64,000 bases of DNA from Pseudodesulfovibrio sp. 5S69. Lineage in GTDB: Bacteria > Desulfobacterota > Desulfovibrionia > Desulfovibrionales > Desulfovibrionaceae. Position 1 is the first letter of the stretch; each line of letters opens with the position of its first letter. This document shows positions 30,686 through 41,843 of this stretch, one piece after another. The notes beneath the pieces were generated by a model. That model was given only the letters and a program-made list of their open reading frames with translations. It had not been told where the DNA came from and searched no databases. A program made the translations under genes and the position numbers. The stretch covers positions 1,923,501 through 1,987,500 of the forward strand of contig NZ_CP146609.1 of assembly GCF_037094465.1 (NCBI RefSeq), given 5' to 3'.

Positions 30686-31159
30686 ATGAATAACAGAAAA
30701 ATTGACAAACTGGATTTGGAAATCCTGAACATCCTTCAGGAAGACGGAAAGGTTTCCAATGCCGAAATAGCCCGGAAGGTCGGCAAGGCTCCTTCGGCCG
30801 TGCTCGAACGCGTGCGCAAGCTGAAGAAGAGCAGTATCATCAAGGGCTATGAATGTATTGTCAACCACAAAGCCCTGGGCCGGGGACTGACGGCCTTCAC
30901 TTCCATCCGCGTGGAAGAGGGCGTGGGCGCCACCGAGGTCGGCCAGAAGCTGGCGGAATTCCCGGAGGTTCTGGAAGTTCATTATACCGCAGGGCGGGAT
31001 TCGTACCTGGTCAAGGTCCGGGTGGAAGACACCGAGGCCTTGCAAGCGACGCTGGCGAAGTTCGGCACCATCGGGCCGGTCAGGGACACCAATTCGACCA
31101 TTGTCCTGACCACGGTCAAGGAGTCACGGGTCATACCGCTACCCCACGAAAAAGACTAG
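30686..31159 (+). CDS. Lrp/AsnC-family transcriptional regulator
   Basis: 157 residues from ATG 30686 (MNNRKIDKLDLEILNILQEDG), the usual Lrp opening. A GTG at 30659 would add nine residues but lies inside the candidate promoter. The helix-turn-helix (about 20-50, NAEIARKVGKAPSAVLERVRKLKKS) is followed by a RAM ligand-binding domain (about 75-150). It lies 17 bases before putA on the same strand, and Lrp-type proteins control putA in other proteobacteria, so proline-responsive control of putA is a reasonable inference. Confidence 0.9.
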   Translation: MNNRKIDKLDLEILNILQEDGKVSNAEIARKVGKAPSAVLERVRKLKKSSIIKGYECIVNHKALGRGLTAFTSIRVEEGVGATEVGQKLAEFPEVLEVHYTAGRDSYLVKVRVEDTEALQATLAKFGTIGPVRDTNSTIVLTTVKESRVIPLPHEKD

Positions 31160-31176
31160 AACACAAGGAGTCAACA

Positions 31177-34100
31177 ATGTCCGCTACACCGACCTCCCTG
31201 GACCCGAGCATCATCACTCGGGGCAGGGAGTTTTTTACGTCCATTTCCGGCGAATCTCCTTCGGTTTTCAACAAAGGCTGGTGGACCGGAAAAGTCATGG
31301 ACTGGGCCATGAAAAACGAAGATTTCAAGGTCCAAATGTTCAGATTCGTTGATGTTCTTCCGTACCTCAGTACGTCGGAGTCGCTTTCCCGCCATATCGA
31401 AGAATATTTCGCGGGCGAGGATTCCAACATTCCGGACGTGCTCAAGTGGGGGGCGACCAAGACCAAGTTCGGCGGCGGCCTGGTGGCCAAGGTCCTGAAC
31501 AAGACCATCCGCTCCAACATCGAGTCCATGGCCCGCCAGTTCATCATCGGCCAGGAGGCCAAGGAGGCGGTCAAGGGCATCAAGAAGCTGCGCAAGGACG
31601 GCTTCGCCTTCGTCCTCGACCTGCTCGGCGAGGCCACCGTGTCCGAAGAGGAGTCCGCCGCCTACCGCGACGGCTACCTGGAGGTCCTGGACGCCATCCA
31701 TAAGGAATTGGACAAGTGGAAGCCGCTGGGCGGCGGCGAGGGCGAGCTGGACTGGGGCAACGCCCCCAAGGTCAACGTGGCGGTCAAGCCCTCGGCCTTC
31801 TACTCCCAGTCCAAGCCCGTGGACATGGAGGGTACCGTGGACGGCATGGTCCACAGCATCGAGCCGGTCTACAGGAAGGTCATGGAGATGGGTGGCTTCA
31901 TGTGCATCGACATGGAGCAGCTCAAGTACAAGGAGGCCACGGTGGAGCTGTACAAGCGGCTGCGCCTCAAGTACCCGGACTATCCGCACCTGGGCATCGT
32001 CTTCCAGGCCTACCTCAAGACCGTGGACGAGGACGTCCGCCAGCTCATCGATTGGGCCCGTGAAGTGAATCTCCCCATCTCCATCCGGCTGGTCAAGGGC
32101 GCCTACTGGGACTACGAAACCGTGCTGGCCAAGCAGAACGACTGGCCCGTGCCGGTCTGGACCCACAAGCCGGAGTCCGACATGGCCCACGAGCGCGTGG
32201 CCCGCTACATCCTCGAAAACCACGATATATGCCATTTCGCCTGCGCCTCGCACAACATCCGGACCATCTCGGCGGTCATGGAGAACGCGGCCGAGCTGAA
32301 GGTGCCCGAGGACCGCTACGAGTTCCAGGTCCTCTACGGCATGGCCGAGCCCGTGCGCAAGGGCCTCAAGAACGTGGCCAAGCGCGTGCGTCTCTACTGC
32401 CCCTACGGCGATCTGTTGCCCGGCATGGCCTATCTGGTCCGCCGCCTGCTCGAAAACACGGCCAACGAGTCCTTCCTCAAGCAGACCTTCGCCGACGAGG
32501 CGGACATGGACCGGCTCCTGGAGAACCCGGAGGAGACCCTGCGCCGCCAGTTGGAGGGCAAGTGCAAGACCGAGTCCGAGGAACAGGACGTACTGCCCCG
32601 GTTCAGGAACTTCCCGCCCTCGGACTTCACCATCCCGGCCGAGCGCGAGGCCTTCCCGGCATCCATCGCCAGGCTGCGCGCCGACATGGGCAAGCAGGTC
32701 CCGCTGTACATCAACGGCCGGGACGTGACCACGGACGACACCCTGGACTCCTACAACCCGGCCAACCCGGACGAGATCATCGGCTCCGTGTGCCAGGCGG
32801 GCGTGGCCGAGGTGGACAGCGCCGTGGAGGCCGCCCGCACGGCCTACTTCTCCTGGCGCGACGTGGCCCCGGAGGAGCGCGCGCAGGTCCTGCTCAGGGC
32901 CGCCGCACACCTCAAGGCCAACGTCCACGACATGGCCGCTCTCCAGGTCCTCGAAGTGGGCAAGCAGTGGGATCAGGCCCAGGCCGACGTGGGCGAGGCC
33001 ATCGACTTCCTCGAATACTACGCCCGCGAGATGATCCGCCTGGGCAAGCCGCGCCGCATGGGCCGGGCCCCCGGCGAGATGAGCCATCTCTTCTACCAGG
33101 GCAAGGGCGTGGCCGCGGTCATCGCCCCCTGGAACTTCCCCATGGCCATCTCCGTGGGCATGGTCTCCGCGGCCATCGTCTGCGGCAACCCCGTGGTCTA
33201 CAAGCCCGCCGGGTCCTCTTCCTGCGTGGGCCGGGCCCTGGTGGACATGTGGAAGGCCGCCGGACTGCCCGACGGCGTGTTCAACTACTGCCCCGGACGC
33301 GGTTCGGTCATGGGCGACCACCTGGTGGACCACCCGGACGTGGCCGTCATCGCCTTCACCGGCTCCATGGAAGTGGGCCTGCGCATCCAGCAGCGCGCGG
33401 CCGTGGCCCAGCCCGGCCAGGAGCAGTGCAAGCGGGTCATCGCCGAGATGGGCGGCAAGAACGCGACCATCATCGACGACGACGCCGACCTGGACGAGGC
33501 CGTGCTCGGCGTGCTCTATTCCGCCTTCGGGTTCCAGGGCCAGAAGTGCTCGGCCTGCTCGCGGGTCATCGTCCTGGACGCCATCTACGACCGCTTTGTC
33601 GGCCGCCTGACCCAGGCCGCCAAGTCCATCAAGCTCGGCCCGTCCGAGAACCCGGCCAACTACATGGGGCCGGTGGTGGACAAGGCCGCCCAGGAGAACG
33701 TCCTGCGTTACGTCAAGATCGCCGAGGAGGAGGGCAGGGTGCTGGTCAAGCGCAACGTGTCCGACGACCTCAAGGCCACCGGCGGCTGCTACGTGCCCCT
33801 GACCATCGTGGAGAACATCACCAAGGAACACCGCATCGCCCAGGAGGAGGTCTTCGGCCCCGTGCTCGCGGTCATGCGTGCCCAGGACATGGACGAGGCC
33901 CTGGACATCGCCAATTCCACCCGGTTCGCCCTGACCGGCGCCATCTACTCCCGCAGCCCGCACAACCTGGAGCGGGCCTACAGGGAGTTCCGCGTGGGCA
34001 ACCTGTACCTGAACAAGTACTCCACCGGCGCGCTGGTCGAACGCCACGCCTTCGGCGGATTCAAGATGTCCGGTGTGGGCTCCAAGTCCGGCGGCCCGGA

Positions 34101-34197
34101 CTACCTGCTCCAGTTCATGGACCCGCGCATCGTCTGCGAAAACACCATGCGTCGAGGCTTCGCCCCCATCGAGGAGGGCGACGACTGGTTGAGCTAG
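31177..34197 (+). CDS. putA: Bifunctional proline dehydrogenase / glutamate semialdehyde dehydrogenase
   Basis: 1006 residues from ATG 31177 behind AAGGAG. PutA oxidises proline to glutamate at the membrane periphery. The proline dehydrogenase barrel spans about 90-470 (RLVKGAYWDYE carries substrate/FAD residues) and the aldehyde dehydrogenase about 510-990. Its likely catalytic residues are E757 in IAEMGGKNA and C791 in GQKCSACSR. There is no N-terminal ribbon-helix-helix repressor domain, so it is not the trifunctional type. A terminator follows. Confidence 0.95.
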   Translation: MSATPTSLDPSIITRGREFFTSISGESPSVFNKGWWTGKVMDWAMKNEDFKVQMFRFVDVLPYLSTSESLSRHIEEYFAGEDSNIPDVLKWGATKTKFGGGLVAKVLNKTIRSNIESMARQFIIGQEAKEAVKGIKKLRKDGFAFVLDLLGEATVSEEESAAYRDGYLEVLDAIHKELDKWKPLGGGEGELDWGNAPKVNVAVKPSAFYSQSKPVDMEGTVDGMVHSIEPVYRKVMEMGGFMCIDMEQLKYKEATVELYKRLRLKYPDYPHLGIVFQAYLKTVDEDVRQLIDWAREVNLPISIRLVKGAYWDYETVLAKQNDWPVPVWTHKPESDMAHERVARYILENHDICHFACASHNIRTISAVMENAAELKVPEDRYEFQVLYGMAEPVRKGLKNVAKRVRLYCPYGDLLPGMAYLVRRLLENTANESFLKQTFADEADMDRLLENPEETLRRQLEGKCKTESEEQDVLPRFRNFPPSDFTIPAEREAFPASIARLRADMGKQVPLYINGRDVTTDDTLDSYNPANPDEIIGSVCQAGVAEVDSAVEAARTAYFSWRDVAPEERAQVLLRAAAHLKANVHDMAALQVLEVGKQWDQAQADVGEAIDFLEYYAREMIRLGKPRRMGRAPGEMSHLFYQGKGVAAVIAPWNFPMAISVGMVSAAIVCGNPVVYKPAGSSSCVGRALVDMWKAAGLPDGVFNYCPGRGSVMGDHLVDHPDVAVIAFTGSMEVGLRIQQRAAVAQPGQEQCKRVIAEMGGKNATIIDDDADLDEAVLGVLYSAFGFQGQKCSACSRVIVLDAIYDRFVGRLTQAAKSIKLGPSENPANYMGPVVDKAAQENVLRYVKIAEEEGRVLVKRNVSDDLKATGGCYVPLTIVENITKEHRIAQEEVFGPVLAVMRAQDMDEALDIANSTRFALTGAIYSRSPHNLERAYREFRVGNLYLNKYSTGALVERHAFGGFKMSGVGSKSGGPDYLLQFMDPRIVCENTMRRGFAPIEEGDDWLS

Positions 34198-34218: not shown

Positions 34219-34257
34219 GAAGTCCCGCCGGGTGCGCCTGGCGGGACTTTTTTTACC
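34219..34257 (+). terminator. Intrinsic terminator of putA
   Basis: AAGTCCCGCC (about 34221-34230) pairs with GGCGGGACTT around a 10-base loop, followed by a run of T residues. It begins about 20 bases past the putA stop codon. Confidence 0.93.
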
Positions 34258-34461: not shown

Positions 34462-34481
34462 AACTGAGTGCATACTCAGTT
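34462..34481. promoter_or_regulatory. TetR operator 1
   Basis: AACTGAGT (34462-34469), GCAT, ACTCAGTT (34474-34481): a perfect 8-base inverted repeat. It lies just upstream of the -35 box. Confidence 0.65.
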
Positions 34482-34493
34482 TTCCCGATTTTT

Positions 34494-34523
34494 TTGACAT
34501 AGTAGGATGTTACTCAGTATGAG
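34494..34523 (+). promoter_or_regulatory. Promoter of the TetR-SulP-phosphorelay operon
   Basis: TTGACA (34494-34499), an 18-base spacer and TATGAG (34518-34523). A half-site ACTCAGT lies across 34512-34518. The promoter is flanked on both sides by the same palindromic site. Confidence 0.55.
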
Positions 34524-34529
34524 GGAAAA

Positions 34530-34549
34530 AACTGAGTGAACACTCGGTT
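34530..34549. promoter_or_regulatory. TetR operator 2
   Basis: AACTGAGT (34530-34537), GAAC, ACTCGGTT (34542-34549): the same palindrome as operator 1 with one changed base. It covers the predicted transcription start, fitting repression by the TetR protein encoded next. Confidence 0.65.
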
Positions 34550-34573: not shown

Positions 34574-35155
34574 ATGAAGAAGAAGGAATCCATCCTCAAG
34601 GTCGCCACGTTCATGTTCGCGCACAAGGGGTTTGCGGACACGTCCGGGCAGGAACTTGCCCGCCTCACCGGGGTGGCCGAGGGGACGATATTCTACCACT
34701 TCAAGACCAAAGAGGGTCTGTTGCTGGCGATCCTGGAGAAAACCAGGGACGAGATAGTCGACCAGTTCGAGCGGTTCTTCGAGAACAGGCCGTTCAAGTC
34801 CGGTCTCGAGATGACGGAGGAGGTCATCTCATTCTATCTCTATCTGGCAGGCCTGATGGAGGACAAGTTCCTTTTGCTGCACCGCCACTTTCTCTACCAG
34901 TTCTCCGAGTCCAATCCGGAGTTCAGGGGGAACCTCGAGGATATCTACAATTGCCTCGTGGACATCTTCGAGAAGGCCATCGTGGCGGGCCTGGAGGACG
35001 GTTCCATCAGCCAGGAGATCCTTCCCAGGAAATCGGCGCTCATTCTGTTCACGATGGCTGATGGTCTGGTTCGGTTCAAAAACTACAACCTGTACGATGC
35101 GGGCGCGCTGTTCAACGAGTTGATGCGGGCGTGTCGCCGGATGCTGCAGGCGTAA
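34574..35155 (+). CDS. TetR-family regulator of the SulP operon
   Basis: 193 residues from ATG 34574 (MKKKESILKVATFMFAHKG), with AAGGA well placed; an earlier TTG start at 34553 is less likely. The helix-turn-helix (about 25-48) reads SGQELARLTGVAEGTIFYHFKTKEGLL. The rest is helical without recognisable ligand specificity. Two matching palindromes flank the promoter, so it probably represses its own operon. SulP starts 18 bases after its stop codon. Confidence 0.9.
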   Translation: MKKKESILKVATFMFAHKGFADTSGQELARLTGVAEGTIFYHFKTKEGLLLAILEKTRDEIVDQFERFFENRPFKSGLEMTEEVISFYLYLAGLMEDKFLLLHRHFLYQFSESNPEFRGNLEDIYNCLVDIFEKAIVAGLEDGSISQEILPRKSALILFTMADGLVRFKNYNLYDAGALFNELMRACRRMLQA

Positions 35156-35172
35156 TGCAAGGAAGAGGCTGC

Positions 35173-37299
35173 ATGCTTTCACGAATATTTCCCTTTATCG
35201 GTTGGTTCAAGGGGTACAACATGGCGGCGCTGCGTGCCGACGCCATTGCGGGGCTGACCGTTGCCCTCGTGCTCATTCCACAGTCCATGGCCTATGCGCA
35301 GTTGGCGGGCATGCCCGCCTACTACGGCCTGTATGCGTCGTTCCTGCCGCCCCTGGTGGCCGCCCTGTTCGGTTCCAGCCGCCAGTTGGCCACCGGCCCC
35401 GTGGCCGTGGTCTCGCTGATGACCGCCGCCTCGCTTGAGCCGCTGGCCACGGCGGGCAGCGAGGGCTACATCGCCTACGCCATCCTGCTGGCACTGATGG
35501 TCGGCATGTTCCAGTTCCTGCTCGGCGTGCTCAAGCTCGGCCTGGTGGTCAATTTTCTGTCCCACCCCGTGGTCAACGGCTTTACCAACGCCGCGGCCAT
35601 CATCATCGCCTCGTCCCAGTTTTCCAAGATGTTCGGCGTGTATGTCGACGGCGCCAAGCATCACTACGAGACCATCATGCGTGTGGTCGAGTCGGCCATC
35701 CACTATACCCACTGGCCCACCCTGGGCATGGGCGTGCTGGCCTTCGGCATCATGGTCGGCCTCAAGCGGATCAACCCCAAGATCCCCAACGTGCTGGTGG
35801 CCGTCGTCGTGACCACGGCCCTGTCCTGGGGGCTGGGCTTCAACCACGACACCCAGGCCCCGGCGGAGGCCATTCGCGTTCCGGCCGTACATGAGGCCAT
35901 CGCCGGTTTCAACGCCACCGTGGACGCCATGGACGCATTGGCCCTGGAGCGTACCGCCCTGGCCAAGGGTCTGGAGGAGGCCAAGGCGGGCGGCGATCCC
36001 CTGGCCGTCCTGGACATCCAGCACGGCCAGAACGTCATCGGCGTCAAGATGGCCGCCCTCAAGGAAAAGGCCCACGTGCTGCGCACCGAACTCCGCGAGA
36101 CCCTGCTTTCCGGCGTGGAACAGCCCGGCGGCGGCCTGCTCTTTTTCGAGCGGGGTGCGGTCCCGGAGGGCATGACCGCCGACGGCCGCACCTGGCGCAT
36201 CAAGGTCGGCAACACCAAGCTCGACGCCGCCTCCCTGAAGATGATGGGCGGCGGGGCCGTGGTCGGCACCGTGCCCTCGGGCATCCCGTCCATCACCATG
36301 CCGTCCCTGGACCTCAAGGTCATGCTGCACCTCATCCCGTTCGCGGCGATCATCTCCCTGCTCGGCTTCATGGAGGCCATCTCCATCGCCAAGGCCATGG
36401 CCGCCAAGACCGGCCAGCGGCTGGACCCCAACCAGGAGCTCATCGGCCAGGGGTTGGCCAACATGCTCGGCGCCTGCGGCAAGAGCTACCCGGCCTCGGG
36501 CTCGTTCTCGCGCTCGGCGGTCAACCTGCAGGCGGGCGCGGTCAGCGGCATGTCCAGCGTGTTCACCTCGCTCATGGTCGTCATCGCGCTGCTCTTCTTC
36601 ACCCCGCTGCTCTACCACCTGCCCCAGGCCGTGCTGGCCGCGGTCATCATGATGGCCGTCATCGGGCTGATCAACGCCTCGGGCTTCATCCACGCCTGGA
36701 AGGCCCAGTGGTATGACGGGGCCATCTCCATCCTGTCCTTCGTCTGCACCCTGGCGTTCGCGCCGCACCTGGACAAGGGCATCATGGTCGGCGTGGTCCT
36801 GTCGCTGCTCGTGTTCCTGTACAAGTCCATGCGCCCGCGCGTGGCCAACCTGTCCCGCACCGAGGACGAGTCCCTGCGCGACGCCACCGCCTTCGGCCTG
36901 CGTGAGTGCAAGCACATCTCTCTGGTCCGCTTCGACGGCCCGCTCTTCTTCGCCAACGCCAGCTTCCTGGAGGACCAGATCACCGAGCGGCTGATGGGCA
37001 ACGACAAGCTCCGGCACATCATCATCGTGGCCAACGGCATCAACGACATGGACGCCTCGGGCGAGGAGGCCCTGTCACTCATCGTCGACCGGGTCCGCTC
37101 CCGCGGCCTGGACATCTCCCTGTGCGGCGTGAACGAGGCGGTCATGGCCGTGCTCGAACGCACCCACCTGCTGGAGAAGGTCGGCAAGGACCACGTCTAC
37201 GCGACCATGGAGAACGCCATCTGCGCCACGCACGCGAGTGCCCACCGCAATGGCGAGGAAGAGAGCTGTCCCCTCACCACCGTTTGCCGCCTGGCCTAA
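35173..37299 (+). CDS. SulP-family anion transporter with inserted soluble domain
   Basis: 708 residues from ATG 35173 (MLSRIFPFIGWFKGYN). The membrane part has the SulP signature (ALVLIPQSMAYAQLAGMPAYYGLYAS and QLATGPVAV). A hydrophilic insertion of about 135 residues (about 226-362), partly coiled coil, interrupts the membrane domain before VPSGIPSITMPSLDLK. A cytosolic STAS domain (about 570-690) ends the protein, with DMDASG where many STAS domains have D-S/T-x-G. It probably moves sulfate or another anion. It is in an operon with signalling genes. Confidence 0.92.
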   Translation: MLSRIFPFIGWFKGYNMAALRADAIAGLTVALVLIPQSMAYAQLAGMPAYYGLYASFLPPLVAALFGSSRQLATGPVAVVSLMTAASLEPLATAGSEGYIAYAILLALMVGMFQFLLGVLKLGLVVNFLSHPVVNGFTNAAAIIIASSQFSKMFGVYVDGAKHHYETIMRVVESAIHYTHWPTLGMGVLAFGIMVGLKRINPKIPNVLVAVVVTTALSWGLGFNHDTQAPAEAIRVPAVHEAIAGFNATVDAMDALALERTALAKGLEEAKAGGDPLAVLDIQHGQNVIGVKMAALKEKAHVLRTELRETLLSGVEQPGGGLLFFERGAVPEGMTADGRTWRIKVGNTKLDAASLKMMGGGAVVGTVPSGIPSITMPSLDLKVMLHLIPFAAIISLLGFMEAISIAKAMAAKTGQRLDPNQELIGQGLANMLGACGKSYPASGSFSRSAVNLQAGAVSGMSSVFTSLMVVIALLFFTPLLYHLPQAVLAAVIMMAVIGLINASGFIHAWKAQWYDGAISILSFVCTLAFAPHLDKGIMVGVVLSLLVFLYKSMRPRVANLSRTEDESLRDATAFGLRECKHISLVRFDGPLFFANASFLEDQITERLMGNDKLRHIIIVANGINDMDASGEEALSLIVDRVRSRGLDISLCGVNEAVMAVLERTHLLEKVGKDHVYATMENAICATHASAHRNGEEESCPLTTVCRLA

Positions 37300-37319
37300 G
37301 GCGCGAAAAGGGAGTCAAT

Positions 37320-38537
37320 ATGTCTGTCATCACCGTTTTCAACGGACTGTTTTGCGAAGCCGGCGTGGTGGTCAAGCGCGTGCTCGACGCCACGGACTGT
37401 AGACTGGTAACCGACCAGGAGATCGTGGCCGACGCCTCGCACCTGTCGGGCATGGCCGAGGACCGCATTGCCCGCGCCTTCCAGGCCAAGGCCTCGGTCT
37501 TCAACAGCTTCAGCCACGAGAAGGAGCAGGCCATCGCCTGGATGCGCCTGGCCGTGGCCGAGCGGCTGGTCAAGGACGACAACCTGGTCATCCCCGGTTT
37601 CGCCTCCCAGTTGCCCGATCCGTCCGTCGGCCACGTCCTCAAGGTCTGCCTCATCTCCGACCGCAAGGCGCGCGTGGCCGTGGCCGAGCGTGAGGAGGGC
37701 TTCGCCGAGAAGCACGCCATGAAGCTCATCCGCAAGGACGACGAGGACCGCGCCGCCTGGGTCAAGGCTCTGCGCGACGAGGACGACCCGTGGTCCGGCA
37801 CCCTCTACGACCTGGTCCTGCCCGTTGCCTCCACCGGCGTGGAGCGCTCGGCGGACCTCATCGTCGAGCAGCTCGGCAACACCGCGGTCGCGGTCACGGA
37901 CAAGACCCGCGCCCAGGTGCAGGACTTCCTCCTGGCCGCCAGGGTGGAGACCGTGCTCGCCAAGGAGGGCCACAGCGTCCAGGTCTCGGCCCGCAAGGGC
38001 ACGGTCATCCTGACCATCAACAAGCACGTCCTCCTGCTGGACAAGCTGGAGCGCGAGCTGAAGTCCATCGTCTCCGGGGTGGAGGGCGTCATGGCCGTGG
38101 AGGCTCAGGTGGGCAAGGGGTTCCACCAGACCGACATCTACCGCAAGATGGACTTCGCCGTGCCCTCCAAGGTCCTGCTGGTGGACGACGAACGCGAATT
38201 CGTCCAGACCCTGTCCGAAAGGCTGATGATGCGTGACATGGGCTCTGCCGTGGTTTATGATGGGGAGTCCGCCCTGAACCTGGTCAGGGACGACGAGCCC
38301 GAGGTCATGATCCTCGACCTGAAGATGCCCGGCATCGACGGCATCGAGGTCCTGCGCCGCGTCAAGAACGAGCACCCGAACATCGAGGTCATCATCCTGA
38401 CCGGCCACGGTTCGGAGGCGGACCGCGAGGTGTGCATGGAACTCGGCGCGTTCGCCTACCTGCACAAGCCCGTGGACATCGACGTCCTGAGCGAGACGCT
38501 CAAGGCCGCCAACGAAAAGATCAGGGCCGAAAAGTAA
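37320..38537 (+). CDS. Cytidylate-kinase-like / BON-like / receiver fusion protein
   Basis: 405 residues. Residues 1-190 resemble the cytidylate-kinase-like family (TDQEIVADASHLSGMAEDRI; then SDRKARVAVAEREEGF and LYDLVLPVASTGVERSADLIVEQL), but the P-loop position reads FNGLFCEAG, without GxGxGK, so catalysis is doubtful. About 195-275 looks like a BON-type fold (VQVSARKGTVILTI). About 283-398 is a receiver domain with D289/D290, phospho-acceptor D333, T361 and K383. There is no output domain. I infer a signal integrator for the kinase encoded next. The kinase-like assignment is by pattern only. Confidence 0.8.
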   Translation: MSVITVFNGLFCEAGVVVKRVLDATDCRLVTDQEIVADASHLSGMAEDRIARAFQAKASVFNSFSHEKEQAIAWMRLAVAERLVKDDNLVIPGFASQLPDPSVGHVLKVCLISDRKARVAVAEREEGFAEKHAMKLIRKDDEDRAAWVKALRDEDDPWSGTLYDLVLPVASTGVERSADLIVEQLGNTAVAVTDKTRAQVQDFLLAARVETVLAKEGHSVQVSARKGTVILTINKHVLLLDKLERELKSIVSGVEGVMAVEAQVGKGFHQTDIYRKMDFAVPSKVLLVDDEREFVQTLSERLMMRDMGSAVVYDGESALNLVRDDEPEVMILDLKMPGIDGIEVLRRVKNEHPNIEVIILTGHGSEADREVCMELGAFAYLHKPVDIDVLSETLKAANEKIRAEK

Positions 38538-38558
38538 CTCCGGGAGCCGGGTGGCGTC

Positions 38559-40307
38559 ATGGCATCATTGCTCGAGAAGATACGACCGCAATTCTGGGAT
38601 ACGGACAGCGACGCGGGGGCAGGCAAGAGCCTGTTCAACTACCGCCGCATCTGGCGTTTCGCCATTATCCTGCTGGTGCTGGTGGCGCTCATCCCCCTGA
38701 TGGTCATGGCCTTCATCGACTACAACGTCACCCGGCATTCCCTCGAATCCGAGAACCTCCTGCGCACGGCCAGGACGACCTCCAACACGAGGCGTTCGGT
38801 GGCCTACTTCCTGGATGAGCGGACCAAGGCCCTGGAGTTCCTGGTCCACGACCAGGGCATCGCGGCCCTGCGCAACAACGGGAACCTGGCCAAGGTGCTG
38901 GCCTCCCTGCAACAGAGCTTCGGCGGGTTCGTGGACATCGGCGTGATCGACGACCGGGGGCGGCAGATCGCCTACATCGGCCCGTACGACCTGCTCGGCC
39001 GCGACTACAGCGGCCAGGAGGGGTTCGCCACGACCATGGCCCACGGCACCTACATCAGCCGGGTCTTCCTCGGCTTCCGCGACGAGCCGCACCTGGTGGT
39101 CTCGCGCAAGGTGCGCGACAGCCGGAGCGGTGAAGACTACATCCTCCGGGCCACCCTGGACACGGACCAGTTCAACTCCATCCTGACCCAACTCGACCTG
39201 CCCGGCGGCGGCGACGCCTTCGTGGTCGACCGCGACGGCGTCATCCAGACCCCGTCCAAGGAGCACGGCTCCCTGCTGACCCGGGTGGATCTGGCCATCC
39301 CAGGCTATTCCGACACGACCCGCGTGGAACAGGTCCGGGGCCGGGACGGCGTGGAGTACACCGTGGGCTACGCCTACATCCACGACACCCCGTTCATCGT
39401 GCTCGTGGTCAAGCGCACCCGCGAGCTGATGATGCCGCTGCAGACCATCCGCATGGAGCTGCTCTGGATCCTGATCACCAGCATCGTCGTCATCCTGCTG
39501 GTCATCGTGGGCGTGGCCACCTACCTGGTCAACAAGGTCTACATCGCGGACCAGACCAGGGCGCGGACCCTGCATCGCATGGAGCACACCAACCGCATGG
39601 CCTCCATCGGGCGGCTGGCGGCGGGCGTGGCCCACGAGATCAACAATCCCCTGGCGATCATCAACGAGAAGGCCGGGCTGATCCGCGACCTGTTCGTCTA
39701 CAAGCAGGAGTACGCCAACGACGAGCGGCTGCTGGGGAACATCGACTCCATCATCAATTCGGTCACCCGCTGCGGCAAGATCACCAAGCGGCTCCTCAGT
39801 TTCGCCCGGCACATAGACGTGGAGATGGACGAGATCGAATTCAAGGACCTGGCCAACGAGGTCATCGACTTCCTGCGCAAGGAGGCCGAGTACCGGTCCA
39901 TCACCATCGACATGGACATCCCGGAGAAGCTCCCCCCGTTCATCTCGGACCGGGGTAAGCTGCAGCAGATATTCCTCAACCTGGTGAACAACGCCTTCCA
40001 GGCCATGAACGACGGGGGGCACCTGTCCATCACGGCTCGGGAGACGGCCTGCGACCAGTTGGTCTTCACTGTGGAGGACGACGGCTGCGGCATTCCGGAA
40101 GCGGACATCAAGCGCATCTTCGACCCGTTCTTCTCCACCAAGAAAAAGACCGGCGGCACCGGTCTGGGCCTGTCCATCACCTACGGACTGGTCCAGGAAT
40201 TGGGCGGATCCATGGCCGTGGAGAGCGAGGTGGGCACGGGAACGACCTTCACCATAATCATGCCCCTCAAGGGGACCAAGCCCGAAGACAAGACGGACAA
40301 GGCATAA
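38559..40307 (+). CDS. Membrane sensor histidine kinase, Cache-like sensor
   Basis: 582 residues. Two membrane segments (about 33-54 and 303-325) enclose an extracytoplasmic sensor of about 245 residues that looks like a double Cache domain (DIGVIDDRGRQIAYIGPY, AFVVDRDGVIQTPS). The HisKA helix has H359 in GVAHEINNPLAII. The ATP-binding domain is complete: NLVNNAFQAM, DDGCGIP, FDPFFSTKK and GTGLGLS. It lies 21 bases after the fusion protein gene and 1 base before the receiver gene, so these are likely partners. Confidence 0.95.
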   Translation: MASLLEKIRPQFWDTDSDAGAGKSLFNYRRIWRFAIILLVLVALIPLMVMAFIDYNVTRHSLESENLLRTARTTSNTRRSVAYFLDERTKALEFLVHDQGIAALRNNGNLAKVLASLQQSFGGFVDIGVIDDRGRQIAYIGPYDLLGRDYSGQEGFATTMAHGTYISRVFLGFRDEPHLVVSRKVRDSRSGEDYILRATLDTDQFNSILTQLDLPGGGDAFVVDRDGVIQTPSKEHGSLLTRVDLAIPGYSDTTRVEQVRGRDGVEYTVGYAYIHDTPFIVLVVKRTRELMMPLQTIRMELLWILITSIVVILLVIVGVATYLVNKVYIADQTRARTLHRMEHTNRMASIGRLAAGVAHEINNPLAIINEKAGLIRDLFVYKQEYANDERLLGNIDSIINSVTRCGKITKRLLSFARHIDVEMDEIEFKDLANEVIDFLRKEAEYRSITIDMDIPEKLPPFISDRGKLQQIFLNLVNNAFQAMNDGGHLSITARETACDQLVFTVEDDGCGIPEADIKRIFDPFFSTKKKTGGTGLGLSITYGLVQELGGSMAVESEVGTGTTFTIIMPLKGTKPEDKTDKA

Positions 40308-40308
40308 T

Positions 40309-40659
40309 ATGAAAGTACTGTTGGTAGACGATGAAGTGGAACTGGTTTCCGCCATGGCCGAGCGCCTCGGATTCCGGGACGTGGACGCGGACTGGACGGA
40401 CAATGGCGAATCGGCCCTGGCCATGGCCGACAAGACCGCGTACGACGTGGCCGTCCTGGACATGAAGATGCCCAGGTTGAGCGGCCTGGAACTCATGGAG
40501 CGGCTGGCGGAAAAGCATCCGGACATGAAGTTCATCTTCCTGTCCGGCCACGGCTCGGAAGCGGATTTCAAGGCGGGCTGCGCTGCGGGCTGCAACTACC
40601 TGATCAAGCCCATACAGCTTGAGGACCTCGTCGCCCTGATCCGCAAGGTGGCGGCGTAA
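40309..40659 (+). CDS. Single-domain response regulator
   Basis: 116 residues, receiver only. Acidic pocket D7/D8, phospho-acceptor D51 in VLDMKMP, the conserved S/T position S79 in FLSGHGSEAD, and K100 are present. No DNA-binding or enzymatic output follows, so it is either a phosphate shuttle or acts by binding a partner. It starts one base after the histidine kinase gene ends. It is close in sequence to the receiver of the fusion protein (HGSEAD, DxKMP). Confidence 0.94.
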   Translation: MKVLLVDDEVELVSAMAERLGFRDVDADWTDNGESALAMADKTAYDVAVLDMKMPRLSGLELMERLAEKHPDMKFIFLSGHGSEADFKAGCAAGCNYLIKPIQLEDLVALIRKVAA

Positions 40660-40675
40660 CAACAAAGGAGATGCC

Positions 40676-41326
40676 ATGAGCCGGACCCAGTGCGAGACCC
40701 GCGAGGGGCTGCGATTCTTCGGGCGCATCAGCGCATCCGTTTCCCACGAGATCAAGAACGTGTTCGCCGTGATCAACGAGGCGGCCGGTCTGATCGAGGA
40801 CTTCACGCTCATGGCCGAGCGGGGAGTGCCCCTTCAGCCCGATCGGCTCAAGAGCGCGGCCAATTCCATCCAGGGCCAGATCCGGCGCGGCGACGCCATC
40901 GTCAAGAACATGAATGCGTTCGCGCATTCCACCGACGAGGACGTCCGCGAGGTGGATCTGGTCGAGGCCCTCAGGCTTGCGGCGGACCTGACCGCCCGTT
41001 TTGCCGACATGCGGCAGATCAGGCTGACCGTGGGCGAGTGCGAGCCCGTGTCCATGGTCGCGTGCCCCTTTGATCTGACGCGGCTGCTGCACTCCTCAAT
41101 AGCGGCGGCCTTCGATTCCATGCAACCGGGCGACACGCTGGCCGTTAGCGTATCCCCGGATGGCGGCGGCGCATCGTTCTCCCTTTCCGTGCCCGGAAAG
41201 GATGCCCCGCTGAAGAATGACGAACCGTTCGCCGAACTGGCCCGGGCCATGAACGCCCGCGTCGAGGTGGACGAAAAGACCGGGACCAGCCAGTTGCTGC
41301 TTGCGGACAAGGGCGCTCCCGCGTAA
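40676..41326 (+). CDS. Histidine kinase fragment lacking the ATP-binding motifs
   Basis: 216 residues, cytosolic. Residues 10-70 form a HisKA-type helical hairpin with H24 in SASVSHEIKNVFAVINEAAGL. The C-terminal half (about 90-215) has the size of an ATP-binding domain, but the N box is replaced by LLHSSIAAAFDSM, and no DxGxG or GxGxG box is seen. It may act as a phosphotransfer or dimer partner instead of a kinase. The gene lies between two receiver genes in the operon. Confidence 0.85.
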   Translation: MSRTQCETREGLRFFGRISASVSHEIKNVFAVINEAAGLIEDFTLMAERGVPLQPDRLKSAANSIQGQIRRGDAIVKNMNAFAHSTDEDVREVDLVEALRLAADLTARFADMRQIRLTVGECEPVSMVACPFDLTRLLHSSIAAAFDSMQPGDTLAVSVSPDGGGASFSLSVPGKDAPLKNDEPFAELARAMNARVEVDEKTGTSQLLLADKGAPA

Positions 41327-41358
41327 GACAACATTCATACCAGATCGGAGAAGAGAAA

Positions 41359-41787
41359 ATGGCAGAAAAAGTACTGCTTATCGATGATGAAGTGGAATTC
41401 CTCGAGGCCCTGTCCGAACGGATGGAGATCCGGGGCATGGATGTGACCACGGCCGAGAACGCCAATGCGGCGGTCAGCGCGATCAATTCGGGCGATTTCG
41501 ACGCCATCGTGCTGGACCTGCAGATGCCGGACATGAACGGCATCGACATGCTCAAGATCATCCGGAAGACCAACCCGGACATGCAGGTCATCCTGCTCAC
41601 CGGCCAGGCCACCCTGGAAGCGGGCATTCAGGCCATGAAGCTCGGCGCCATGGACTTCATGGAGAAGCCCGCGGACATCGACGCGCTGACCGACAAGATC
41701 AAGAAGGCCCAGGCCAAGAAGATGGTCATCGTGGAAAAGAAGACCGAAAAGAAGGTCAACGACATCCTCAAATCAAAGGGGTGGTAA
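41359..41787 (+). CDS. Response regulator with short helical extension
   Basis: 142 residues. The receiver domain covers 1-120 with D9/D10, phospho-acceptor D53 in VLDLQMPDMNG, T81 in LLTGQATLEAG and K103 in EKPADI. A lysine-rich tail of about 20 residues follows (VEKKTEKKVNDILKSKGW), with no known output domain. It is the last gene of the operon; a strong terminator lies 24 bases downstream. Confidence 0.94.
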   Translation: MAEKVLLIDDEVEFLEALSERMEIRGMDVTTAENANAAVSAINSGDFDAIVLDLQMPDMNGIDMLKIIRKTNPDMQVILLTGQATLEAGIQAMKLGAMDFMEKPADIDALTDKIKKAQAKKMVIVEKKTEKKVNDILKSKGW

Positions 41788-41810
41788 CCCCTTTTCGCCC
41801 TTGACGAAAA

Positions 41811-41843
41811 AAGGCTGCCGGGATCGTTCCGGCAGCCTTTTTG
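41811..41843. terminator. Bidirectional terminator after the phosphorelay operon
   Basis: AAGGCTGCCGG (41811-41821) pairs with CCGGCAGCCTT (41829-41839) across a seven-base loop; A residues precede it and T residues follow. The convergent GNAT gene ends 20 bases beyond, so both transcripts could end here. Confidence 0.92.

Follow-up and report, generated by a model that had tools for sequence, protein, structure and literature searches.

Seven closely spaced genes on the forward strand of the Pseudodesulfovibrio sp. 5S69 genome appear to form an anion-uptake operon in which a TetR-type protein would control expression and a split phosphorelay of four steps would set the activity of a SulP carrier by way of a kinase-like effector protein. 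The genes lie at positions 34574-41787 of the window, by which we mean the whole 64,000-nucleotide stretch that was analysed (contig NZ_CP146609.1), and are referred to as A to G (TetR, SulP, fusion protein, histidine kinase, receiver, H-box protein and receiver). We put the probability of this combined explanation at about 0.6; within it, the relay reading taken alone is stronger than the step in which an effector acts on the carrier. The host is a sulfate reducer and the anion taken up is probably sulfate, as predicted from the carrier family and the host. The reading frames, and the gaps of 17, 20, 21, 1, 16 and 32 bases that separate A to G in order, agree with a first-pass annotation of this DNA, which had reported seven co-directional genes 1-32 bases apart. 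ATG starts were adopted; for the TetR, SulP and fusion genes the first possible starts given by the open reading frame (ORF) tool lie further upstream. The genes and their parts are as follows.

34574..35155, plus strand: A, TetR-family protein, predicted local repressor, 193 amino acids (PF00440, 4.3e-13; NCBIfam FadR; PDB 3whb)
35173..37299, plus strand: B, SulP anion carrier with C-terminal STAS domain, 708 amino acids (PF00916, 3e-100; PF01740, 1.6e-16)
35839..36252, plus strand: insert of SulP after transmembrane helix 7 (TM7), about residues 223-360 (gap in PDB alignments, hydropathy)
36910..37218, plus strand: STAS domain of SulP (Pfam)
37320..38537, plus strand: C, degenerate cytidylate-kinase fold, BON-like part and receiver, 405 amino acids, the proposed effector (Pfam, structural model)
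37395..37820, plus strand: Cytidylate_kin2 part of C (Pfam match from profile position 24)
37899..38111, plus strand: BON-like part of C, residues 194-264 (secondary structure of the model, weak Pfam match)
38172..38501, plus strand: receiver domain of C (PF00072, 8.7e-28)
38559..40307, plus strand: D, dCache sensor histidine kinase, 582 amino acids (Pfam, hydropathy, ATP box G1)
40309..40659, plus strand: E, single-domain receiver, 116 amino acids, the proposed first receiver (Pfam Response_reg)
40676..41326, plus strand: F, putative ChpT/Spo0B-like histidine phosphotransferase, 216 amino acids (H24/N28, ATP boxes absent, structural model)
41359..41787, plus strand: G, single-domain receiver, 142 amino acids (Pfam Response_reg)

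In the mechanism that we propose, A would set the expression of the whole unit by binding two palindromes that flank the promoter, and the dCache kinase D would sense a small molecule in the periplasm. The domain anatomy of the proteins suggests that phosphate would pass from D to E to F, and from there to the receiver of C and/or to G; the genes for D, E, F and G follow one another in this order, and C is the sole receiver protein with an attached domain. C may then act after translation on the adjoining carrier, or on a small-molecule state common to such carriers, and G could serve either as a further terminal receiver or as a sink for phosphate.

The carrier and the signalling genes had been proposed to form one unit, and this was borne out when the adjacency of A to G was looked up in relatives. 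These were sought in the fetched surroundings of C-family genes with fixed score thresholds; a self-written gene caller that relied on the operon's codon bias overlooked SulP in some loci, and those were re-read by a plain ORF search. C was matched in all 199 genomes of the family that were searched, mostly over the receiver only, with full-length coverage in 51. At the level of the order, with duplicates of four contigs excluded, A-B-C-D-E-F-G lay on one strand in 46 of the 71 loci of the C family, including one (L167) where SulP is split into two frames. Elsewhere among the 71, G is duplicated once (L061), contig ends interrupt four loci (L035, L112, L153 and L154), C stands alone in nine, a TauE version is present in three (L155, L157 and L162), and C is fragmented in L161, where it falls below every threshold. 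Outside the order, loci were fetched from 20 of the 31 best-scoring genomes as a phylum-level sample, and A to G were complete in 10 of the 20. B adjoins C in 57 order-level loci and in 19 of the phylum-level loci, L213 being a contig end. The unit is not invariant, and it counts against our reading that G was not recognised in seven order-level loci (six in genus g25, plus L060) and that, among the phylum-level loci with F, D went unrecognised in one and E in three. Order, strand and operator (see below) are nevertheless conserved well beyond the genus, and more than chance would give. The mere co-location of unrelated functions, for which one could cite the several carrier and relay combinations and the SulP genes that lack a relay, is strongly disfavoured by this conservation and is scarcely credible.

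The four genes D to G bear on the relay reading. In Pfam, D matched dCache_1, HisKA and HATPase_c, and hydropathy gave two transmembrane helices; the ATP boxes are kept in its relatives (G1 in 73/73, G2 in 70/73 and the N box in 67/73). The active site of E (D7, D8, D51 and K100) was found in 59/59 relatives and that of G (D, D, D, K) in 49/49. F matched HisKA only, at 21.5 bits and so under the cut-off of 26.9. Among the 38 aligned F proteins HisKA was matched by 32, HATPase_c was not among the families matched, and both the phospho-acceptor H24 and N28 were invariant; the ATP boxes were almost wholly missing from F relatives (G1 0/70, G2 1/70, N box 0/70), and in the phylum-level F proteins the H box was present in 19/19. 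F had been called a kinase fragment at first. The reading as a truncated, dying kinase was rejected in view of the retention of H24 and N28 in 38/38 while the ATP boxes have almost wholly gone, and on its sequence F is better read as a histidine phosphotransferase of the ChpT/Spo0B kind. Its structural model (predicted local distance difference test, pLDDT, 82; predicted template-modelling score, pTM, 0.71) shows a helical hairpin and then an alpha/beta domain. Among the best 50 rows of a Foldseek search, the ChpT structures 4fpp, 4fmt and 4qpj gave query-normalised template-modelling (TM) scores of 0.53-0.54, against 0.40-0.51 for the rest. D and F also have a common H-box tail signature (68/73 and 60/70), which one would expect of proteins that dock the same receiver.

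Several points weigh against this assignment of F. One of the 19 phylum-level proteins had a DxGxG match, the alignment behind the model held 9 sequences, and the TM margin over kinases in the model comparison is small. Ranked by Foldseek E-value, HK853 complexes stand above ChpT, and the 50 rows listed by VIA-align were histidine kinases and kinase-related sensors, with ChpT not among them. The control for the tail signature is weak, as 50 of the 73 distinct H-box segments, unsorted by gene, carry the tail and 23 do not.

As F is phosphotransferase-like, the genes would form a split relay made up of a kinase, a receiver, a phosphotransferase and terminal receivers. The Spo0 (KinA-Spo0F-Spo0B-Spo0A) and CckA-ChpT-CtrA/CpdR relays consist of a kinase, a single-domain receiver, a hairpin phosphotransferase with a degenerate ATPase fold and a terminal receiver, and the terminal receivers Spo0A and CtrA have DNA-binding output. 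The genes studied here resemble these relays in the autokinase D, the stand-alone receiver E and the phospho-histidine hairpin F without ATP motifs, but they differ in forming a compact operon with a carrier and in having terminal receivers without a DNA-binding domain. The system would thus be Spo0-like in its working and not a Spo0 member by its output. ChpT itself is presented in PMC3433190 as a phosphotransferase whose ATP-binding fold is atypical and which is incapable of autophosphorylation, and a survey lists KinA-Spo0F-Spo0B-Spo0A as architecture M1 (PMC8199921).

The nature of the receivers bears on whether the relay controls transcription. In the passages covered, PMC11887813 (2025) describes a constitutive and abundant SulP that is encoded, in Desulfobacteraceae and Dv. 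salexigens, with two-component genes and a TetR that has a 16-bp palindromic operator. On the strength of gene content and proteomics in six Desulfobacteraceae, its authors propose that the Cache histidine kinase senses external sulfate, that response regulators of the WalR type bind the promoters of sulfate carriers, and that TetR provides a second level of control. Compared by description, not by sequence, that cluster is very probably the same operon as the one reported here: each encodes SulP, a Cache histidine kinase and receivers, each has a palindrome ahead of its TetR gene, and both belong to sulfate reducers. The difference lies in the receivers, which are called WalR type there and assigned promoter binding, whereas Pfam found no DNA-binding domain in C, E or G of the window, as the first-pass annotation had stated. 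In threshold-passing relatives, with starts chosen closest to that of the window protein, E has 114-128 amino acids (59 proteins) and G 142-143 (49 proteins), and C carries a kinase fold, all of which argues against the transcriptional model. TetR and its operator do agree with that model, and a receiver might still reach DNA by way of a partner protein, for instance TetR or a sigma-54 activator whose gene lies elsewhere; overall we judge transcriptional control by the relay to be quite unlikely.

Given this publication, the earlier description of the system as undescribed was too strong. PMC11887813 was the only source in the literature searched where a description of the sulP/TetR/kinase cluster was found. 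Its main text contains neither 'phosphotransferase' nor 'kinase-like', and its supplementary figures S21-S24 may show parts of the anatomy set out here. The main text of a survey of sulfate carriers in sulfate reducers (PMC5840216) does not contain 'response regulator', 'histidine kinase', 'TetR', 'regulator' or 'neighbo'. PMC4641369, PMC3333781 and PMC10102598 mention TSUP operons and other carriers, and not this operon in the passages covered; those of PMC11214288 and PMC5109826 added nothing on this cluster. What is new here is the anatomy of the relay, the effector family and the breadth of its distribution.

The effector proposed for the relay is C, which had been annotated as a fusion of kinase-like, BON and receiver parts. 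The first and last of these stood up in Pfam; the BON part was weak by profile and is suggested by the fold pattern in the model. PF13189 (Cytidylate_kin2) matched the window protein at 56.2 bits (cut-off 28) over profile positions 24-172 of 176, and it matched 28/28 aligned C members at E <= 10. The P-loop segment of the window protein was left unmatched by the profile, and residues 2-31 contain no invariant column in the 28 members. Because the match starts at position 24 and no such column is present, the P-loop is not conserved. The N-terminal part is a probable pseudokinase. The BON profile matched 5 of the 28 members at E <= 10 (best 0.023) and not the window protein, in whose model residues 194-264 form a helix-strand-strand-helix-strand pattern. 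The receiver has the Asp/Asp/Asp/Lys signature in 68/68 proteins, and its first hit in the fold search was Spo0F. A fold search with the whole model of C matched only the receiver among the matches listed, so it is Pfam and secondary structure that support the kinase fold and the BON part; the N-terminal part gave only marginal matches to PDB entries (3fdi, E 0.13; 5gke, 0.61).

The opposite view of C would make it an active nucleotide kinase, switched by its own receiver, that makes or removes a nucleotide signal. The profile match in every aligned member and the invariance of D141 and D164 would fit such an enzyme, but the state of the P-loop does not, nor does the fact that C has not retained the G-rich loop seen in the short relatives L165 and L166, and we regard this as highly unlikely. 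Those relatives (L165:8267-9100 and L166:8593-9423), each of about 277 amino acids, have the kinase fold but lack a receiver, and their G-rich loop is closer to the canonical form. Across the phylum, numerous further weak relatives of about 270-330 amino acids were seen.

The link between C and carriers was examined by tallying the neighbours of 99 C-family genes in the fetched loci (those scoring at least 200 bits, plus the broken L161), two of which, L112 and L213, were unassessable on account of contig ends. Since a carrier gene adjoins C in 89 of the 97 assessable cases, C is probably a carrier-linked effector. Pfam was run on example carriers and the remainder were recognised by phmmer. 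Besides SulP B, with the order-level and phylum-level counts given above, the carriers were an SLC13-type protein (CitMHS + TrkA_C) in six cases (L155, L156, L158-L161), a NhaB Na+/H+ antiporter in four (L063, L064, L111 and L113, all of genus g25, with neither SulP nor D-G beside it) and a short SulP in three (L065, L066 and L164). The last group includes the host itself, where a paralogue of C (513 amino acids, kinase fold and a weaker receiver match) directly precedes a second, short-form SulP of 553 amino acids (L065:7650-11041, genome about 2543649-2547040). Of the eight exceptions, four have a PPDK_N protein next to C and TauE two genes on (L155, L156, L157 and L162), two are receiver-less forms of C beside a TauE relay (L081 and L117), and in two no carrier adjoins C (L067 and the second C of L164). 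In L081 and L117 the receiver-less kinase-fold protein is convergent beside a relay that has a stand-alone receiver, the parts that are fused in C; in the L117 genome the match to C crosses one TGA, and this copy may be a truncated form.

The variety of carriers also bears on where C might act. Control through the STAS domain of SulP had been suggested, and as the sole target STAS is unlikely; a STAS-only mechanism was rejected because C is also a neighbour of SLC13-type and NhaB carriers. Pfam detected no STAS domain in any scanned example of the SLC13-type, TauE or NhaB carriers. It must be set against the effector step that gene neighbourhood cannot separate control of a carrier from shared physiology.

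B itself consists of a Sulfate_transp membrane domain and STAS, and scored 428 bits with TIGR00815 (cut-off 380). Solved SLC26 relatives align with it in two blocks, 3-201 and 362-684, between which lies the insert of about residues 223-360. By SLC26 topology the insert, which follows TM7, would face the periplasm; it is thus probably periplasmic and could meet the dCache domain of D. The same insert is present in full-length matches to SulP orthologues that have no relay. Control through this loop had also been suggested, and the loop was rejected as a docking site for receivers on both grounds, its presumed place out of cytoplasmic reach and its retention in relay-less SulP.

The position of the insert raises the converse idea that SulP is a co-sensor, D reading the occupancy of the carrier in the membrane or periplasm so that the carrier controls the relay, in the way of DctA-DcuS with DauA modulating. 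An insert and a dCache domain that both probably face the periplasm, if the topology is taken as above, would allow this, and the B-C-D linkage is strong. A precedent exists in E. coli DctA/DcuS/DauA, where a SulP-family protein is likewise tied to a membrane histidine kinase (PMC5703999); that system differs in being two-component and regulating the production of DctA, and its abstract describes no split relay. The idea is weakened by the insert of the relay-less orthologues and by homologous D kinases that lie beside TauE carriers without SulP, and we consider it unlikely.

The relay-less orthologues of B (58-66% identity, without C) occur in genera g21, g29 and g46 and in two g25 genomes, and they too count against our reading. 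Of the 18 SulP-without-C genomes 14 were inspected: a TauE-like gene (phmmer) lies near SulP in g29 and g46, a second SulP in three g21 loci, and no carrier marker was found nearby in the remaining inspected loci. In L168-L170 (g21) the long SulP without a relay adjoins a second, short-form SulP.

Relay genes without SulP were found in 13 TauE loci of other Desulfovibrionaceae (L068, L069, L071, L072, L074-L081 and L117). These encode TauE, a small protein, a PAS sigma-54 activator (12/13, not found in L077), a D-like kinase, a receiver, an F-like protein (recognised in 9/13 at E <= 1e-10), a receiver and a receiver-kinase, and the receivers of such clusters are up to about 57-64% identical to that of C. 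They therefore share with the window a homologous dCache kinase and receivers in matching order, and differ in the TauE/SafE (TSUP) carrier, the PAS sigma-54 activator, the stand-alone terminal receiver and the extra receiver-kinase. In L070, L073 and L083 relay-like genes are followed by another TauE, a small protein and a PPDK_N protein. Since relay-only and SulP-only loci both exist, relay and carrier are separable modules, and they have been combined more than once. Other arrangements were seen as well. In L155, L156, L157 and L162, which belong to two further families of this order, the same relay genes come after those for TetR, TauE, a protein of 243-260 amino acids (the single one scanned matched no Pfam family) and a PPDK_N/PEP-utiliser protein about 875 amino acids long. 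L212 and L215 contain a sigma-54 activator, a D-like kinase, a receiver, SulP, C, F and receivers, and appear to link the TauE and SulP versions. The four best other D relatives of the host (L148-L151; about 3.62-3.64, 2.15 and 1.46 Mb) lie in multi-receiver clusters that include a PPDK_N/PEP-utiliser protein, a TauE or an SLC13-type carrier.

A wider proposal can be built on these modules, namely a transferable, non-transcriptional phosphorelay present across the phylum, a serial His-Asp relay in which the terminal receiver would drive a pseudo-nucleotide-kinase/BON effector that gates anion and cation carriers from several unrelated families (SulP, SLC13/DASS, NhaB and possibly TauE). In sulfate reducers it would thereby tie flux to the sensing of external sulfate and to the nucleotide state inside the cell. 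This we put forward tentatively, as a possible but doubtful extension. Dissimilatory sulfate reduction, a process important to carbon and sulfur cycling in marine sediment, begins with the import of sulfate. A split relay that ends on a carrier-linked effector would be a testable alternative to transcriptional control of sulfate carriers, and it suggests a function class for the Cytidylate_kin2-BON-receiver family, which so far has a kinase-like label only. It would also be a case of one relay core combined with different carriers.

Expression of the operon is the part of the mechanism assigned to A. Its best NCBIfam match was FadR, at 53.6 bits against a cut-off of 200, and in the PDB it matched 3whb, a fatty acid metabolism regulator (2.6e-11). 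The sites that surround the start and end of the operon are these.

34463..34480, no strand: putative TetR operator palindrome 1, ACTGAGT-GCAT-ACTCAGT (pattern search of the genome)
34494..34523, plus strand: promoter-like TTGACA-18-TATGAG, flanked by the two operators (by eye)
34531..34548, no strand: putative TetR operator palindrome 2, ACTGAGTG-AA-CACTCGGT (pattern search of the genome)
41808..41842, plus strand: terminator-like hairpin, strong, 16 pairs (hairpin scan)

The operator pattern has only two sites in the genome (one contig, 4.16 Mb), both at this operon, with one match for the reversed-pattern control, and shuffles gave an expectation of 0.02 occurrences in the window. Upstream of TetR the core operator was found in 48/57 relatives by the strict pattern and in 56/57 with one base relaxed; it was absent upstream of B (0/56), C (0/67) and D (0/73). 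At the phylum level the core was present at 12 of 14 TetR genes. Across the 2.36 Mb of fetched loci the strict core pattern had 87 matches, their positions unsorted. Because of the operator sites, their rarity in the genome and their conservation upstream of TetR, A is, on sequence grounds, most probably a regulator dedicated to this locus. The idea of a TetR regulon with many sites in the host found no support, given the two sites in 4.16 Mb and the single control match, weaker sites not having been sought.

The operon had been said to run from one promoter to one terminator. The terminator-like hairpin at 41808-41842 supports the second half of this; the promoter is not shown, as the promoter scan listed none upstream of TetR and TTGACA-18-TATGAG was picked out by eye. 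The gene upstream (30853-34197), which we take to resemble a PutA-type proline/aldehyde dehydrogenase, ends, also by eye, in a GC-rich hairpin and then a T-run at 34219-34255; as this would close the upstream gene, the operon looks bounded on both sides.

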